Positions 18,997 through 58,788 of a stretch of DNA of 64,000 nucleotides are shown here, piece after piece. The stretch lies in NCBI RefSeq assembly GCF_026248685.1, contig NZ_CP111041.1:310001-374000 (forward strand). Reading direction: 5' to 3'. The stretch is from Haladaptatus caseinilyticus (GTDB lineage Archaea > Halobacteriota > Halobacteria > Halobacteriales > Haladaptataceae). Both the position numbers and the translations under genes were made by a program. The notes beneath the pieces are model-generated. The model saw nothing but the letters and a program-made list of their open reading frames with translations, was not told where the DNA came from and did not search any database. The stretch's first letter is position 1. The number at the start of each line of letters is the position of its first letter.

Positions 18997-20664
18997 ATGC
19001 TTCATGCGAAAGGATCCCTCCTCACCATCGACGTAAGCGATCGATCTACATCGACAACCAATATCGAAGATGTCCTCGCACAGTTCATGGGCGGTCGAGG
19101 AGTTGCAACAATACTCGCTCACGATCGCATTCCGTTTGACGCTGAGCCGCTTGGACCGAAAAATCGTGCATACATTTCGGCTGGTCCGCTCCAGCAGTCG
19201 CAGATGAGTTTCACCGGTCGGATGAATATGACTGGACTGTCACCACTGACCGATGGATTACTGTCTACCAACGCGGGCGGCTATCTCTCGCGGAATTTTG
19301 TCGGATCTGGCCACAGTGTTGTCGAGATAACCGGTGCGAGCGATAAGCTACTCGCGATTCATATCACTGACGAGGGCGTTGAGTTCGAGGAAGTACCCGA
19401 TCTCGCACAAGCGACCGTTCCTGAAGTCACCGACGCGATGAACGAGCGTCACGAACTTGAGAGTGAAAATCTTGTCACTATTGGCCCTGCCGGTGAGAAT
19501 CTTGTCCGGTTCGCCTGTCCGATAACCTACAACACCAGAGCCTTCGGCCGCGGCGGTCTCGGTGCCGTTCTCGGTTCGAAAAACGTAAAGACAGTATCTT
19601 TCCGAGGCGATTCAACACCCCCTGTCGAGATCGATGAAGACGTCCAGTCGGAGCTTCACAAAGAGGCCGCAACCACCGATGACATGATGAAGCGACAGGG
19701 AACGACCGCAGGAACGGAGTTCATCAACGACAACTTCTCATTGCCGACGCGGTACTTCTCCGAGCAGTCCTTTGAACACGTCGAGGAGATCGGTGGAAAT
19801 GCTGTTGAGGAAAAAAAGTTCACGAAGGAAGCCTGCTCGGTTTGTGCTTTCGCCTGTAAACTACCAACTAGGGACGAGGAACGCGACATCGAAACCGAGG
19901 GCCCAGAATTCGAAACGGTGTTCTCGTTCGGGTCGAACTGCGGTATTGGCGCCATCGTCGACGTGATGCAGTCCAATAAGCTATGCGACATCTACGGGAT
20001 GGATACTATCTCGTGTGGCAATAGTGTCGCTGCGTACCTCGCGGCACACGATGAATTCGGCAACGCCGAACGTGTTCATGAACTGGTCGAAAAGATTGCC
20101 TACCGGAATGATGAAGGAGATTTACTCGCAGAAGGCGTCAATCGGGCCCACGATGAGCTTGATGTGAAAAACTTCACCGTAAAAGGCATGGAGTTTGCAG
20201 CCCACGATGGTCGTGCAATCCACGGACAGGGTCTCTCGTACGCTGTCGCGAATCGCGGGGCCGACCATATGTACTCGACGATGCTCGGTCTCGAGTACGA
20301 TGGTGAGATCAACCCTGACGGAACTGCCGGCAAGGCCGAAGTCCTCATCGAACAAGAGAACCATCACGCAATTCGTGACAGTGGAATTTTTTGTGCGTTC
20401 TCAGGTGACTACTTCACTGAAGAACAAAAGGAGACCATTCTTCGGGCCGATTATGAGGAGTTGCTCACGGTGGGGTCGCGGGTGATTGAACTCGAACGAC
20501 ACTTCAACAATCAACGCGGCATAGATGCAGACGAAGACCGTCTTCCCTACGAATTGCCGGATCTACAGGAATCGATCCAGGAGTACTACGAGCTACGAGG
20601 TTGGAACGACGATGGCACCGTCCCTGAGAGCAACGTTGATGGCTTTGTGACCGCAGACGACTGA
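18997..20664 (+). CDS. Tungsten-dependent aldehyde:ferredoxin oxidoreductase family protein
   Basis: A 555-residue cytoplasmic enzyme of the AOR family, which oxidises aldehydes to acids with a tungsten bis-pterin and a [4Fe-4S] cluster, passing electrons to ferredoxin. Present are the N-terminal pterin-binding domain with FMGGRGVATILAH and NAGGYLSRNFVGSG, and the cysteine group CSVCAFACK with a further C-terminal GIFCAF. I start at MLHAKGSLLTIDVSD because TTTTTATC about 27 bases upstream predicts a leaderless mRNA there; the track frame from 18961 adds an unlikely hydrophobic leader. Two ubiquitin-like proteins follow, as expected for pterin sulfur transfer. Physiological aldehyde unknown. 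Confidence 0.9.
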   Translation: MLHAKGSLLTIDVSDRSTSTTNIEDVLAQFMGGRGVATILAHDRIPFDAEPLGPKNRAYISAGPLQQSQMSFTGRMNMTGLSPLTDGLLSTNAGGYLSRNFVGSGHSVVEITGASDKLLAIHITDEGVEFEEVPDLAQATVPEVTDAMNERHELESENLVTIGPAGENLVRFACPITYNTRAFGRGGLGAVLGSKNVKTVSFRGDSTPPVEIDEDVQSELHKEAATTDDMMKRQGTTAGTEFINDNFSLPTRYFSEQSFEHVEEIGGNAVEEKKFTKEACSVCAFACKLPTRDEERDIETEGPEFETVFSFGSNCGIGAIVDVMQSNKLCDIYGMDTISCGNSVAAYLAAHDEFGNAERVHELVEKIAYRNDEGDLLAEGVNRAHDELDVKNFTVKGMEFAAHDGRAIHGQGLSYAVANRGADHMYSTMLGLEYDGEINPDGTAGKAEVLIEQENHHAIRDSGIFCAFSGDYFTEEQKETILRADYEELLTVGSRVIELERHFNNQRGIDADEDRLPYELPDLQESIQEYYELRGWNDDGTVPESNVDGFVTADD

Positions 20665-21027: not shown

Positions 21028-21273
21028 ATGCAGATCGAAGTCCGTACATACGGAACAGCGCGATTCGTACTGGGTGATAAACAACTCACCATATGTATTG
21101 ACGACGGAGCAACCATTGAAGACGTGCTAGCAGACTTGACGGAGGACTCTGATATCGACCCGAATGACCTCGTTGTTATGAAGAATGGTATTCATGCCCA
21201 ACAGCTAAGCAGCGAGGCAACACCGCTTGAAGATGGCGACCAGCTTGTCCTGGCAGATACGATCGACGAATAA
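21028..21273 (+). CDS. Second ubiquitin-like beta-grasp protein, without Gly-Gly tail
   Basis: An 81-residue protein MQIEVRTYGTARFVLGDKQL..., with the beta-grasp layout of MoaD/ThiS but ending VLADTIDE rather than GG. It is divergent from the GG-bearing paralogue across 84 bases. AOR-linked MoaD-like proteins lacking GG are known in archaeal gene clusters and may act as a structural or docking partner; this function is inference. Confidence 0.75.
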   Translation: MQIEVRTYGTARFVLGDKQLTICIDDGATIEDVLADLTEDSDIDPNDLVVMKNGIHAQQLSSEATPLEDGDQLVLADTIDE

Positions 21274-45213: not shown

Positions 45214-46314
45214 TCAGAGGTCGTAGAGCCGAACGGCGTTCTCACGGAGAATACTACGAGCCACTTTTTCGGCATATTCTTCGGTCATAAAGCCGTCTTG
45301 GTGGAGTCGTTCGAGAACACTCGTGAGGTCAGCACGGAACCGACGTTCCGCAAGCAAGTAGAGTTCCGGGACGGAAAACGCGTCCGAAGCGTAGAGTAAC
45401 TTCGTCGTCGGTGCCAGTTCGAGCGCTTGTGAGATGAGCGGTTCTACACCGTGCTGGATGAACGGCGTGGCGAGTGAGAGGTCGAGGTAGACGTTGTCAA
45501 GTGTTGCGGTGACGTATCCGGCTGCCCGGGTGTACGGGTAGCCACCATGGAGGAGGACTATCGGTGTATCCGCATGCGTTCGGAGGAACTCGTAAAGGTA
45601 GGTCGGGTCGACGAATCTGGGGTTGGCATCGGCGTCACCGAATCCAGTGTGAAACTGCAGCGGTACATCGTGGCGTGCAGCGGCCTCTGCTGCGAGATGG
45701 ACGATGTAGTCGTTGAGGACAGGGTGTTCAAGTCGCCCACTCCATTTCTTACGGACATTTTCGTATGCAGTTCGAAGCGCATCACGATCATGTTCGTGTA
45801 TATCAAGGCCCGTGCGATACGCGACGACCGTTTTCAGCGCGACGAATTCTTCACTGAGGACGTCGTCCAAATGAGCTACGAACGCATCTTCGAACGAGTC
45901 GACCGAATTGTAATTCGGAATCATCGCTTCGGCGGCGTTCTCGATCCGATGAATGGGTTTGATCGCAACGTCCGTGTACGTCGCAAATTCCGAGGGTGAG
46001 ACATCCGGGAATCCATCGTCTACGAGGATGTACTCCGTATTCGTCTGTGAGAGAAGTGCCTGTGTGTACTCCCCGAGGTCGACGTCCGCTCTGCATTCAA
46101 GCAGTGTTTCCTCGTCCTTTCCATCGAACTGTTCACCAAGGAGATCGAGTACTGACCGGTAGTTCAGCGTATGGCGAGCATTCTCCTGTGAGAGATTGCC
46201 CTCGGTAAAGAAGCTCGCAAACGACTGGGTGACTGTTTCATGTGAGAGTGGTTCAACGGCGTGTGCGTGATTGTCGATGAGTGGCGTGGATTCGACAGTC
46301 TCCCGAATTGGCAT
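45214..46314 (-). CDS. Amidohydrolase (FluG N-terminal / amidohydrolase_2 type)
   Basis: A 366-residue TIM-barrel metal hydrolase: PLIDNHAHAVEPL (metal His-x-His), QFHTGFGDADANPR (metal His), VLLHGGYPYTRAAGY (second His), and LLYASDAFSVPELY (catalytic Asp). These motifs are those of the amidohydrolase half of fungal FluG and its bacterial relatives. It follows a GS-like ligase (46407-47750) 92 bases downstream on the same strand, giving the two halves of FluG as separate genes. Predicted hydrolysis of an amide or cyclic linkage; the natural substrate is unknown. Confidence 0.88.
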   Translation of the reverse strand: MPIRETVESTPLIDNHAHAVEPLSHETVTQSFASFFTEGNLSQENARHTLNYRSVLDLLGEQFDGKDEETLLECRADVDLGEYTQALLSQTNTEYILVDDGFPDVSPSEFATYTDVAIKPIHRIENAAEAMIPNYNSVDSFEDAFVAHLDDVLSEEFVALKTVVAYRTGLDIHEHDRDALRTAYENVRKKWSGRLEHPVLNDYIVHLAAEAAARHDVPLQFHTGFGDADANPRFVDPTYLYEFLRTHADTPIVLLHGGYPYTRAAGYVTATLDNVYLDLSLATPFIQHGVEPLISQALELAPTTKLLYASDAFSVPELYLLAERRFRADLTSVLERLHQDGFMTEEYAEKVARSILRENAVRLYDL

Positions 46315-46406
46315 GCCGGACGTGGAACGGCCGTCTAGATAAGCATTCGTACCACTTCGAGGATAGTAGAGCCTAATTGAACGACAATATCGAGTTCGTC
46401 CTGTAT

Positions 46407-47750
46407 CTAGTACAATCGAGTATAGGTCTCAACGTCCCAGTCAGTTACTGCGCTCATTGCGTCTTGCCAGGTTGCTCGTTTCACCGCGAGGTACGTTCGA
46501 TGGAGTTCGCTCCCCATTGCCTGCTTGAGGACGGCATCGTTTTCGAGTTCGTCAAGCGCCTCGCCGAGCGACTGTGGGAGACGCTCGATATTACGGCGGC
46601 TCCGCTCCGATTGAGAAAGGTCACCAGGATTGACATCGACTGGCTTGCCGGGATCGAGTTCACGCTCGATTCCATCGTGACCGGCAGCCAGAGTTCCGAG
46701 GAGCGTCAAGTAGGGATTCGCCGTGTTATCAGCAGCTTTGAGTTCGATTCGTGTAGTCTCGGCCGGTGTCGTCCACTGAGATGAGGGGATTCGAACCATC
46801 GCCTCGCGATTGTCGTATCCCCATGCCGTGTAAGCCGATGCCCACGCATCGGGCTGGAGTCGCTTGTATGAAACGACGGACGGTGCTGTTAGTGCAACGA
46901 GCGCTCTCGCATGGTCAAGGACACCTCCAATGAACTGTCGGCACGTCTCAGAGATACTGTAGTTGGACGTGCTATCCGAATCGTAGAACCTGTTTTCGTC
47001 TCCATGCCAGAGTGAAAGGTGGAGATGACAACCACTGCCTGCGTGCTCCGGAAACGGCTTCGGAGAGAACGTCGCTCGAAGGTTGTGATTTTTGGCGACT
47101 GCTTTTACTGTCTGTTTGTAAAACGTCTGATTGTCACCTGGCGTGAGCCCATCGCCATGCTTGATTGCAATTTCCTGCTGTCCAGGACTGTATTCAGGGT
47201 AATAGACCGATGTCTCCATGCCTTGAGCAGAGAGGCCGTTGACAATCTCGAGAATGATATCATGCGCATTCTGTATGCCATCTGCCGTATAACAACCGCT
47301 CCGATCGAATGGTTCGAATCCGTCTTCCGTCTTACGGACGAGATACCATTCCGGCTCGAATGCAGCACGCGTTTGAGACTCGAACGTGTCGAGGAACGTT
47401 TGTAGGCGTGATCGAGGATCGATTGGCCACGGCGTTTGATCGAGTTGATAGAGGTCACACATCATCGCGGCCCCACGGTCTGCATATGGAAGAAGCCGGA
47501 ACGTCTCGGGGTCGGGGATGAGTCTGACTTCTCCGACACGGCTAAGCGGGGCGTTTTCCGTCGGATAGTCGGTGTCGGTAAATGCCTGCTGTGCCTGTGC
47601 GATGTTGGCACCATTGGCGAACACACTCTCAATATCGTTCGCGTTGACGACTCGTCCACGTTCGACGCCCGCATTGTCAACCCAGAAGAGACGAACTAGC
47701 TCGACATCGTGGCGCTCACATTTTTCGATGACTTCTGATTTGTTGGGCAT
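46407..47750 (-). CDS. Glutamine-synthetase-family ligase 2 (FluG C-terminal type)
   Basis: A 447-residue paralogue of ligase 1 with matching order: FEPEWYLVRK, PEYSPGQQEIAIKHG, AGSGCHLHLSLWHGDENRF, AWGYDNREAMVRIP and RIELKAADNTANPYL. Both share the K in place of the usual Arg and the QQE form. It heads the minus-strand unit with the amidohydrolase. Two such paralogues in one island suggest two related amine or amino-acid substrates, or a heteromer. Confidence 0.88.
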   Translation of the reverse strand: MPNKSEVIEKCERHDVELVRLFWVDNAGVERGRVVNANDIESVFANGANIAQAQQAFTDTDYPTENAPLSRVGEVRLIPDPETFRLLPYADRGAAMMCDLYQLDQTPWPIDPRSRLQTFLDTFESQTRAAFEPEWYLVRKTEDGFEPFDRSGCYTADGIQNAHDIILEIVNGLSAQGMETSVYYPEYSPGQQEIAIKHGDGLTPGDNQTFYKQTVKAVAKNHNLRATFSPKPFPEHAGSGCHLHLSLWHGDENRFYDSDSTSNYSISETCRQFIGGVLDHARALVALTAPSVVSYKRLQPDAWASAYTAWGYDNREAMVRIPSSQWTTPAETTRIELKAADNTANPYLTLLGTLAAGHDGIERELDPGKPVDVNPGDLSQSERSRRNIERLPQSLGEALDELENDAVLKQAMGSELHRTYLAVKRATWQDAMSAVTDWDVETYTRLY

Positions 47751-55497: not shown

Positions 55498-55930
55498 TGC
55501 CACCACCAGTTTTGAAGAACGAACCAGCCTCAGTAAGCATGGTCTTGGCAGGAATGCACGTGAGTGTAGCGGTCATCAGCGTCATCCTATTGACTCGAAT
55601 ATCCGAAACCGCATCAGAATCCGGTAATCCTCGCTGAACAATATTTTTGTATTACTACATATCAATTTGCACCCATCGATCGAAATTCTATTTTAAAGTA
55701 CTTTTCCAGCCGTCAAAGCTGCCTTCGATTGTACCTGCTCTAATGCCCCCTCACTAAGGGCGCGCGCCGACATGACCGACATCCCTGGAGAGCGAGGCTG
55801 TCAGGCCGAGTAAGTCGGCGTAGTCGCAAAGTAATAAACGGAGGAGTGAAAGTCGTAATGAGGGTTCGGCATGGTTGATCCCTGTTATTATTGGATAGGG
55901 GTTTTTCTCCGCCGACATCGTGGAGGGGTT
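55498..55930. other. Spacer and promoter region of nitrile hydratase operon
   Basis: No convincing gene; a 32-codon hydrophobic frame begins at 55539. GTGGAGG at 55920-55926 sits four to five bases before the beta-subunit ATG as a strong ribosome site. TATTATTGGATA at 55883-55894 is a possible promoter. Confidence 0.4.
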
Positions 55931-56602
55931 ATGGATGGCATCCACGACCTCGGTGGGATGGACGGGTTCGACGACCTCCCACCAGACGAACCCGACGATG
56001 CATCACCGTTTCACCAAGACTGGGAGGGACGCGTCTACGCACTGTTCGTCACCGGTATCGCCAGTGGTGCGTTCAATCTAGACGAGTTCCGCTACACGCT
56101 CGAACAGCACAATCCCGAATTTTATCTGGAAAGGTCGTACTACGAGCGCTGGCTCACAGGCATTGAATCGCTCCTCCTCGACGCTGGCGTCATCGACCGT
56201 GGCGAACTCGCAGACCGAGTAACAGCGTTCGAGTGTGGAGAGGCCGAGATTTCCGACAAACCCGGCCCGTCTCTGGACGAACTCACCGAAGGAGTCGCTA
56301 AGGTCTACCAATCGGGACGCGTACGGGAAACCCCTGTGTTTGAACCCGGTGACGAGGTCGAAGTCCGAAATGACCATCCGAAGGGCCACACCCGGTGTCC
56401 GAGGTACATCCGTGGCATCCGGGGAACGATTCATGCCCATCGAGGAACTCACGTCCTACCGGACGCGAGTGCCCACGGAGAGGACCGTGCGGAACCACTC
56501 TACAACGTCAAATTCGACGCCGCCAACGTTTGGGGTGCCAACCATACCGATGCCGACGCCGTCCACATCGAACTCTGGGAAAGTTACCTTAGCAAACCAT
56601 GA
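55931..56602 (+). CDS. nthB: Nitrile hydratase beta subunit
   Basis: A 223-residue subunit of the nitrile hydratase heterodimer, which hydrates nitriles to amides. The N-terminus is typical (MDGIHDLGGMDGFDDLP), followed by the helical region WEGRVYALFVTGIA and YERWLTGIESLLLDAG, and the C-terminal SH3-like barrel (FEPGDEVEVRNDHPKGHTR; GTHVLPDASAHGE; YNVKFDAANVWG). The start at 55931 matches the family MDG-start and the ribosome site. Its stop overlaps the alpha start by four bases. Confidence 0.95.
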   Translation: MDGIHDLGGMDGFDDLPPDEPDDASPFHQDWEGRVYALFVTGIASGAFNLDEFRYTLEQHNPEFYLERSYYERWLTGIESLLLDAGVIDRGELADRVTAFECGEAEISDKPGPSLDELTEGVAKVYQSGRVRETPVFEPGDEVEVRNDHPKGHTRCPRYIRGIRGTIHAHRGTHVLPDASAHGEDRAEPLYNVKFDAANVWGANHTDADAVHIELWESYLSKP

Positions 56603-57216
56603 CAGACACATCAGATTCCACCACCGAGACGAACGACCTTCATGACCACGACCCCGAGGCCCGAGCCAGGGCACTCCAATCACTGCTGACTGAGAAGGGA
56701 TTGTTGAGCACCGATGCCGTAGACGACGTGATTTCTACGTATGAGGAAGCGGTCGGCCCGTTGATCGGCGCAAAAGTAGTCGCGCGGGCTTGGACCGGCC
56801 CAGACTTCAAAGAGCGTCTCCTCGAGAACGGAATCGAGGCAGTGGCCCACCTTGACGTGGCGGTCAGCGACGAGGTGATGGAACTGCGAGTCGTCGAGAA
56901 TACACCCAAGACGCACAATCTCGTGGTTTGTACGCTTTGCTCGTGTTATCCGTGGGCGGTCCTTGGACTTCCCCCCACCTGGTATAAAACACCGGCTTAC
57001 CGCTCGCGGGCCGTCGACGAACCCCGAGCGCTGCTTCGCGAGGAGTTCGATACCGAGATTCCCGGCGATGTCGAGTTGGAAGTGTGGGACAGTAACTCCG
57101 AGATTCGGTATATGGTGTTACCCCAACGCCCACCCGGAACCGATCAGCTGAGCGAAACCGAACTCCGGGACATCGTGACGCGCAACGCCATGTTGGGGGT
57201 GGAGCGGCTCGTATGA
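56599..57216 (+). CDS. nthA: Nitrile hydratase alpha subunit, cobalt type
   Basis: A 205-residue catalytic subunit. The metal claw is VCTLCSCY (Cys111, Cys114, Cys116), whose Thr before Leu marks the cobalt type rather than the iron type (CSLCSC). Cys114 and Cys116 are the residues oxidised to sulfinate and sulfenate. The surrounding YPWAVLGLPPTWYKTPAYRSRAV is diagnostic. It overlaps both neighbours by four bases. Gene order beta-alpha is that of cobalt enzymes. Confidence 0.95.
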   Translation: MTDTSDSTTETNDLHDHDPEARARALQSLLTEKGLLSTDAVDDVISTYEEAVGPLIGAKVVARAWTGPDFKERLLENGIEAVAHLDVAVSDEVMELRVVENTPKTHNLVVCTLCSCYPWAVLGLPPTWYKTPAYRSRAVDEPRALLREEFDTEIPGDVELEVWDSNSEIRYMVLPQRPPGTDQLSETELRDIVTRNAMLGVERLV

Positions 57217-57638
57217 CTGATTCCACGCCAGAACCCGGTGACGAGGCACCGACGTTCGACGCCCCGTGGCAGGCACGTGCGTTCGCCCTCGCAGTTGCCC
57301 TCACCGACGAACTCGGCGATGAGACCCTCACCTGGGAGGAGTTCCAGACTCGTCTCATCGAGGAAGTGAACGCCGACCGGGAGAACGGCGAACCGAATAC
57401 GGTCTACTACCGCCAATGGTTAACCGCGCTCGAACGGTCGTTGGTCGAACGAGGGATTCTCGACTACGGTGATCTCGCGGCCCGCGTCGCGGCGTTCGAA
57501 AACGGTGACCGAGACGGCCACGAGTTCGTCGAAGGGGACCCCCACGCTCATGCAGACCGCCTGCCAGATGGCCACGCCGAAGGAAATCATCACGACCACG
57601 AAATTACCGCGAATAAAAGCGATAGGCAGCCACACTGA
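57213..57638 (+). CDS. Nitrile hydratase activator/accessory protein with His-rich tail
   Basis: A 141-residue homologue of the beta-subunit N-terminal half (WQARAFALAVALTDEL; YYRQWLTALERSLVERGI; DLAARVAAFENG), the family of the cobalt-enzyme activator P14K, which swaps with alpha to insert cobalt. Its last 45 residues are unusual: HAHADRLPDGHAEGNHHDHE is a dense His cluster, presumably a cobalt store or donor. It overlaps the alpha gene by four bases, completing an operon. Confidence 0.9.
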   Translation: MTDSTPEPGDEAPTFDAPWQARAFALAVALTDELGDETLTWEEFQTRLIEEVNADRENGEPNTVYYRQWLTALERSLVERGILDYGDLAARVAAFENGDRDGHEFVEGDPHAHADRLPDGHAEGNHHDHEITANKSDRQPH

Positions 57639-57954
57639 AGTTCAGGTCACGATGTTCTACTCTCCGAGGACGGGTCGGGTGGGAACGGTATTACTGGGGC
57701 CGCAAAACCTGCTAGTATGCCCGACCGATGGACAGTCGGTCTATATTCGCTAGGAGAACAGTCAGCCTGCAGAAACAGGGTACCCACCTCGACGTCAAAC
57801 ACCCCGTCCTTCAAGTGGTTCCGACAGTGGAAAGAGATCAACATTAGCCAGCCTGAAAGTACACGTCGCACGTCCAGTTCTAACTGTTCGGTTTCTCCGA
57901 CAACGATGCTAAGCCACTGTGTAGCATAGAGAATAAACGGGGGTGAATCATCCG
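57639..57954. other. Spacer before alpha/beta hydrolase
   Basis: No gene seen apart from a 70-codon frame of basic composition. Confidence 0.35.
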
Positions 57955-58788
57955 ATGGCAGACACAACACTACCACATTCAGGTGGAGAGACGGAAATCG
58001 TAATCTCAGCGGATAGTACGCCAATTGCATTCGAACGAACGGGGAACGGTCCACCGCTCGTACTCGTGCACGGGGTTACCCATGTTCACGAGTTCTGGGA
58101 CTTGACCGGCGTTCGATCTGCCTTTGCAGAACACTTCACGGTCTACGCACTTGATCGACGTGGTCGCGGTGAAAGCGGCGACGCCACCGAGTACGACCTG
58201 GCACGGGAAGCTGAGGACGTAGTTGCGGTCGTCGATTCGATCAGCGAACCAGTAGTTCTGCTTGGCCATTCCGGTGGCGCCCTCTATTCGCTGGAAGCGG
58301 CCCTGCGAACCGACAACCTACGCAAACTCGTTGTAAATGAACCACCAATACAGATCAGCGAACAGGAACTTGAGGTCAAAGAGGTGGTCGATGAAATGAA
58401 TCGGTTGTTGGACGACGGTAAAAATGAGCAAGCGCTCATGCTGTTCCTGCAGGCAGAAGCCCACCTTACACCGAACGAAATCGACGTGGCTCGCTCGGCT
58501 CCGATCTGGCAGGATATGGTAGACGCAGCTCATACGTTGCCCCGCGAGTGGCAAGCGATCGCGGAGTACGAGTTCAATCCTGCTCGGTTTGCGGACGTGA
58601 CCACGCCGACCCTAGTGTTGGGCGGTGGCGAAAGTCCCCCATTCTACAAGCATGCGACGGAAGCAGTCACCGAGGCACTCCCGAATAGTCAGCTCATTAG
58701 GTTCGACGGGCAATCACACGAGCCGATGAACACCGCGCCAGACCGCTTTATCGAGGAGGTACTCACGTTTATCCGTGACTCGGACTAA
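57955..58788 (+). CDS. Alpha/beta hydrolase
   Basis: A 277-residue soluble hydrolase: oxyanion-hole motif LVLVHGVTHVHEFWDL, nucleophile elbow GHSGGALYS (Ser), acid near PTLVLGGGESPP and catalytic His in GQSHEPMNT. Substrate unknown. It is 316 bases after the nitrile hydratase operon on the same strand; no amidase is present there, but this fold is not a typical amidase, so a link is only possible. GTG at 57943 is an alternative start. Confidence 0.85.
   Translation: MADTTLPHSGGETEIVISADSTPIAFERTGNGPPLVLVHGVTHVHEFWDLTGVRSAFAEHFTVYALDRRGRGESGDATEYDLAREAEDVVAVVDSISEPVVLLGHSGGALYSLEAALRTDNLRKLVVNEPPIQISEQELEVKEVVDEMNRLLDDGKNEQALMLFLQAEAHLTPNEIDVARSAPIWQDMVDAAHTLPREWQAIAEYEFNPARFADVTTPTLVLGGGESPPFYKHATEAVTEALPNSQLIRFDGQSHEPMNTAPDRFIEEVLTFIRDSD

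Follow-up and report, generated by a model that had tools for sequence, protein, structure and literature searches.

Among the closest known systems are the cobalt-type (Co-type) nitrile hydratases (NHases) of Rhodococcus rhodochrous (nhlBAE type) and Pseudonocardia thermophila (1ire). Subunit swapping has been shown for the activators NhlE and P14K, and the activator of R. rhodochrous J1 acts by self-subunit swapping. Most Co-type NHases have the gene order beta-alpha-activator (PMC7193024), whereas Fe-type NHases carry the motif CSLCSC (PMC2667541) and rely on activators that are unrelated COG0523 GTPases (PMC2770081). A survey from 2009 counted zero archaeal NHases (PMC2667541), and halophilic archaea were listed among NHase holders in 2023 (PMC10098168).

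Here, we analyzed a locus of Haladaptatus caseinilyticus within a 64,000-nt stretch of DNA (the window) and found that its three-gene operon is a real, intact and ordinary member of this known enzyme family, with orthologues automatically annotated in sister species. Specifically, plasmids of H. salinisoli PSR8 (NZ_CP085329.1) and H. halobius PSR5 (NZ_CP085339.1) carry the same three genes with the same lengths and overlaps (alpha 91–93% and beta 88–89% identical to those of the window), although their flanking genes are unrelated to the window's and their placement differs. Gene order and a small beta-like activator are shared with the R. rhodochrous and P. thermophila systems. The Co-type NHases of Bacilli (PDB 1v29, 2dpp; Parageobacillus thermoglucosidasius plasmid NZ_CP063415.1) likewise combine CTLCSC with the order beta-alpha-activator, at ~60% alpha identity. 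In Parageobacillus, however, the operon is linked to amidases and a cobalt ECF transporter, neither of which is present in the window, and the activator is without a His-rich tail; the window alpha is also more acidic than that of the Bacilli comparison (pI of 4.5 versus 5.9). The alpha of R. rhodochrous BX2, where a HoxN-type transporter and an amidase are linked, is ~55% identical to the window's. The features of the locus are as follows.

55836..55930, (+) strand: upstream leader, ~77% identical to the two Haladaptatus plasmid copies; the three-copy homology starts here (blastn, alignment).
55931..56602 (ATG 55931, TGA 56602), (+) strand: NHase beta subunit, 223 aa; Pfam NHase_beta_N and NHase_beta_C; TIGR03888, 210 bits; PDB 1v29_B, E-value of 1e-43.
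56599..57216 (ATG 56599, TGA 57216), (+) strand: NHase alpha subunit, 205 aa; Pfam NHase_alpha, 258 bits; TIGR01323, 260 bits; Co-type NHase structures as top PDB matches.
57213..57638 (ATG 57213, TGA 57638), (+) strand: P14K/NhlE-type activator, 141 aa; TIGR03889, 65 bits; NHase_beta_N, 42 bits; tail composition.
57537..57635, (+) strand: His-rich activator tail DPHAHADRLPDGHAEGNHHDHEITANKSDRQPH, 7 His in 33 residues; sequence composition, clade comparison.
57639..57665, no strand assigned: 3′ end of the conserved cassette; plasmid-copy homology ends at 57658 or 57665.

An earlier note on this DNA had claimed a complete beta-alpha-activator operon with 4-base overlaps, and the open reading frames and the beta/alpha and alpha/activator junctions (each an ATGA overlap) are exactly as it gave them. 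GGAGG lies immediately 5′ of the beta ATG at 55931, and the leader (55836..55930) is presumed to be the site of the promoter and Shine-Dalgarno sequence. A longer in-frame beta start at ATG 55871 is less likely than 55931, because MDGIHD is the conserved family N-terminus and annotated orthologues begin there. An alpha/beta hydrolase gene at 57943-58788 was considered as an operon member and ruled out, being ~300 bp distant and beyond the conserved cassette.

All three products scored above the respective NCBIfam cut-offs: beta reached 210 bits with TIGR03888 (nitrile_beta; cut-off, 152.2), alpha 260 bits with TIGR01323 (nitrile_alph; cut-off, 249.85, passed by a narrow margin) and the activator 65 bits with TIGR03889 (nitrile_acc; cut-off, 46). 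The Pfam matches of the operon proteins (E-values of 1e-10 to 1e-77) agree, bearing out the claim of an NHase operon in a haloarchaeon. The Co-type motif VCTLCSC that the earlier note had read in alpha is indeed there, with CTLCSC at residues 111–116 and the ligand residues Cys111, Cys114, Ser115 and Cys116; CTLCSC was found in 37 of 37 haloarchaeal alphas. In a PDB search, the top solved-structure relatives of alpha were Co-type NHases, while those of beta included Bacillus 1v29 and Co-type 3qxe. Alignment of beta with these two structures revealed both conserved arginine motifs, DEFR and GHTR..RY. The arginines of DEFR and GHTR are the two conserved beta arginines near the active site. In the literature, beta Arg56 is described as an active-site arginine (PMC7193024).

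Taken with the motif, the type of activator points to cobalt as the probable metal. The activator gene adjoins alpha and encodes a small, beta-like (P14K/NhlE) protein with a beta-like N-terminal domain and a His-rich C-terminal tail, which supports cobalt; it is not a COG0523 GTPase. Searches of the genome for the cobalt transporters CbiM, CbtA and NicO gave no match (three families, each with positive controls), and this shortage of a recognised cobalt importer is what would favor an NHase running on iron. We consider such an enzyme very unlikely, since alpha carries CTLCSC instead of the Fe-type CSLCSC (PMC2667541), the activator is of the beta-like Co type, and CbiM is missing in 27 of the 33 searched haloarchaea that have the operon, so that another kind of transporter is likely.

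Next, we weighed whether the enzyme is a thiocyanate hydrolase (SCNase), a homologous cobalt enzyme that converts thiocyanate to carbonyl sulfide and ammonia. The window alpha matches the SCNase gamma model (174 bits) as well as PDB SCNase gamma chains, and halophilic archaea with SCNases are also on record (PMC10098168). However, 174 bits is far under the gamma equivalog cut-off of 291.45, whereas the NHase cut-off was passed, and the window has a single, undivided beta of 223 aa that contains both domains, unlike the three-subunit SCNase with its gene order alpha-beta-gamma-activator (PMC7193024). Together, these two points make this identity extremely unlikely. Separately, Gloeocapsopsis and Microvirga plasmids (L099, L104) carry an NHase alpha with two small separate SH3-like genes replacing beta, i.e., a three-subunit form.

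We favor, with a probability of roughly 0.87, a functional Co-type NHase operon (nthB-nthA-activator) that probably descends from a single bacterial acquisition and is mobile as a cassette inside Haladaptatus. According to this model, alpha and beta make up an enzyme that would convert R-CN into R-CONH2, with Co(III) bound by alpha Cys111, Cys114, Ser115 and Cys116. By analogy with NhlE and P14K, the activator would bind alpha, admit cobalt and pass alpha to beta via subunit swapping, and its His-rich tail may help gather cobalt. The amide would probably be cleaved in trans by one of the genomic amidases to carboxylate and ammonia, and the predicted pathway could serve nitrogen or carbon scavenging or detoxification.

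The earlier note had also stated that no amidase or nitrilase lies nearby and that no natural partner pathway could therefore be named. The first part holds, as the 64,000-nt window contains no match to Pfam Amidase or CN_hydrolase; the nearest such genes on the same contig lie ~116 kb (Amidase) and ~59 kb (CN_hydrolase) outside it. The second part fares less well. The genome search for amidases that the note had proposed found seven amidase-signature genes, none of them beside the operon; one is GatA, leaving six non-GatA genes. There are also five CN_hydrolase genes, one of which is NAD synthase, and one formamidase/acetamidase (FmdA-like) homologue located away from the operon. Because the genome has the non-GatA amidase-signature genes and the formamidase/acetamidase homologue, the amide can, as far as gene content indicates, be used in trans. 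Bacterial plasmid NHase operons in our search often had a linked amidase and cobalt transporter; unlike many of these, the window operon has neither gene linked, which we counted against the favored model, as we did the narrow margin of alpha and the missing CbiM, CbtA and NicO matches. A search of the genome for aldoxime dehydratase gave no match, but the control sequences gave none either. As a side observation, window 45214-47750, ~8 kb 5′ of the operon, holds a glutamine-synthetase-like gene that comes near gamma-glutamylputrescine synthetase (634 bits; cut-off, 650) and, adjoining it, a gene whose start resembles an amidohydrolase but which matches no NCBIfam model.

The operon is located on a secondary replicon, a 557-kb contig of the 4.8-Mb, seven-contig genome. 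Its G+C content is 60%, compared with 53% for the window and 61% for a stretch of the largest contig. A block of ~1.83 kb (55836 to 57658/57665) shares 90% identity with both Haladaptatus plasmid copies, spanning from ~95 bp 5′ of beta to ~20–27 bp 3′ of the activator on all three replicons. Beyond it, the flanks are unrelated among the three replicons, and those of the window are absent from both plasmid copies, which have ~225 bp of additional upstream homology in common. Within Haladaptatus, the operon is a compact, bare cassette that probably moves between sites. By comparison with the plasmid copies, dN/dS was 0.10–0.22 for alpha and beta and 0.2–0.43 for the activator; such low values indicate that the operon genes are under purifying selection. 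A rival reading, in which the secondary replicon carries the operon as a passenger that is decaying or silent, draws on its patchy spread (three of nine Haladaptatus genomes), its lack of conserved partners and flanks that differ from species to species. We give this reading hardly any credence, given three open frames with intact active-site motifs, dN/dS well under 1 and a leader that is conserved together with the coding sequence in each of the three copies.

Unlike in Haladaptatus, the operon occupies a syntenic place in the genomes of a single group (family f5, mostly genus g35), where the neighbors inspected have no evident nitrile role; across haloarchaeal lineages, no conserved genomic partner of the NHase operon was found. 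Flanking repeats were considered as transposition marks in the window and rejected: only weak two-copy repeats are present, explicable by chance. Repeats were observed beside the plasmid operons. On the H. salinisoli plasmid (L090 ~19142-19198 and ~21080-21135), ~57 bp 5′ of beta is repeated ~75 bp after the activator, and this repeat is 86% identical to the upstream copy of H. halobius. In H. halobius (L091 21030-21156), an interspersed repeat directly follows the operon; several copies of it lie in the vicinity, close to SWIM zinc-finger genes, and it also occurs elsewhere in the H. caseinilyticus genome. These repeats may help cassette mobility.

To the earlier note, a salt-adapted archaeal NHase was notable. 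The subunits are acidic (pI of 4.4–4.6), but the implied rarity is weakened: of 391 sampled Halobacteria genomes, 31 (about one in twelve) carry NHase alpha, and these come from 18 of 86 genera, halophilic archaea are among the listed holders (PMC10098168), and the Haladaptatus plasmid copies are annotated. Outside Halobacteria, a wider draw from the phylum Halobacteriota turned up nothing but short, incomplete matches, confined to three genomes. These loci (L108, L109, L110; family f13, genus g134) hold short NHase-alpha-like ORFs that cover only profile positions 21–93 and may encode NHLP-type RiPP leader peptides. Halalkalicoccus sp. CGA53 (L048, L077; genome G257) has two NHase operons, one from each haloarchaeal lineage, with one on a plasmid and the other on the largest contig. 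At L073 10866-11469, a haloarchaeal beta matches as two pieces in different frames, reflecting either a frameshifted gene or a sequencing error.

The alpha phylogeny that had been proposed as a check was built from 50 alphas (37 haloarchaeal rows, and a few bacterial rows from plasmids and one genome contig). All 37 haloarchaeal alphas form one clade (support, 99/90), and the nearest bacterial row in this plasmid-biased sample is Parageobacillus (100/88), followed by Rhodococcus and Paenarthrobacter. This topology suggests a single acquisition of the haloarchaeal NHase genes from bacteria. Since the bacterial rows are plasmid-biased, placing the nearest donor group on the Parageobacillus/Bacilli side is provisional. 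The order beta-alpha-activator was present in all haloarchaeal loci examined.

The two halves of the haloarchaeal tree differ in the end of the activator. In the window's half, 27 of 27 activators carry a His-rich tail (with as many as 21 His in 64 residues), against none of the 10 in the other half; for two of these ten (L033, L049), the automatic tail anchor failed and the count was made over the final 30 residues. The branch uniting the 27 tailed members is weakly supported (85/42). Some bacterial activators (Thioclava, Streptomyces, Stutzerimonas) also have His-rich ends, so the tail is not unique to archaea. Eukaryotic beta-alpha fusion NHases have a His-rich linker (PMC3323583); there, as in the window's activator, the His-rich stretch lies beside a beta-type domain, but it joins beta to alpha instead of forming the C-terminus of a separate activator. 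In P14K, a positively charged, flexible C-terminus matters (PMC7193024). A word-based search of the open-access literature did not turn up any description of such a tail on an activator, and the tail is a little-described detail of the metal-loading protein. That it collects cobalt is our guess. It is a speculative and rather unlikely extension that the larger haloarchaeal lineage gained (or the other lost) a flexible His/Asp-rich tail as a built-in cobalt collector that replaces the positive tail of P14K and enables maturation without a recognised importer. The tail as a stand-in for missing CbiM was not supported, as all six CbiM-positive genomes fall in tailed clades.

Our finding leaves the understanding of NHase unchanged. 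It gives a salt-adapted NHase set for high-salt biocatalysis, and the 27 tailed versus 10 tailless activators, divided by a single split in the family tree, represent a natural comparison for cobalt delivery to the enzyme.
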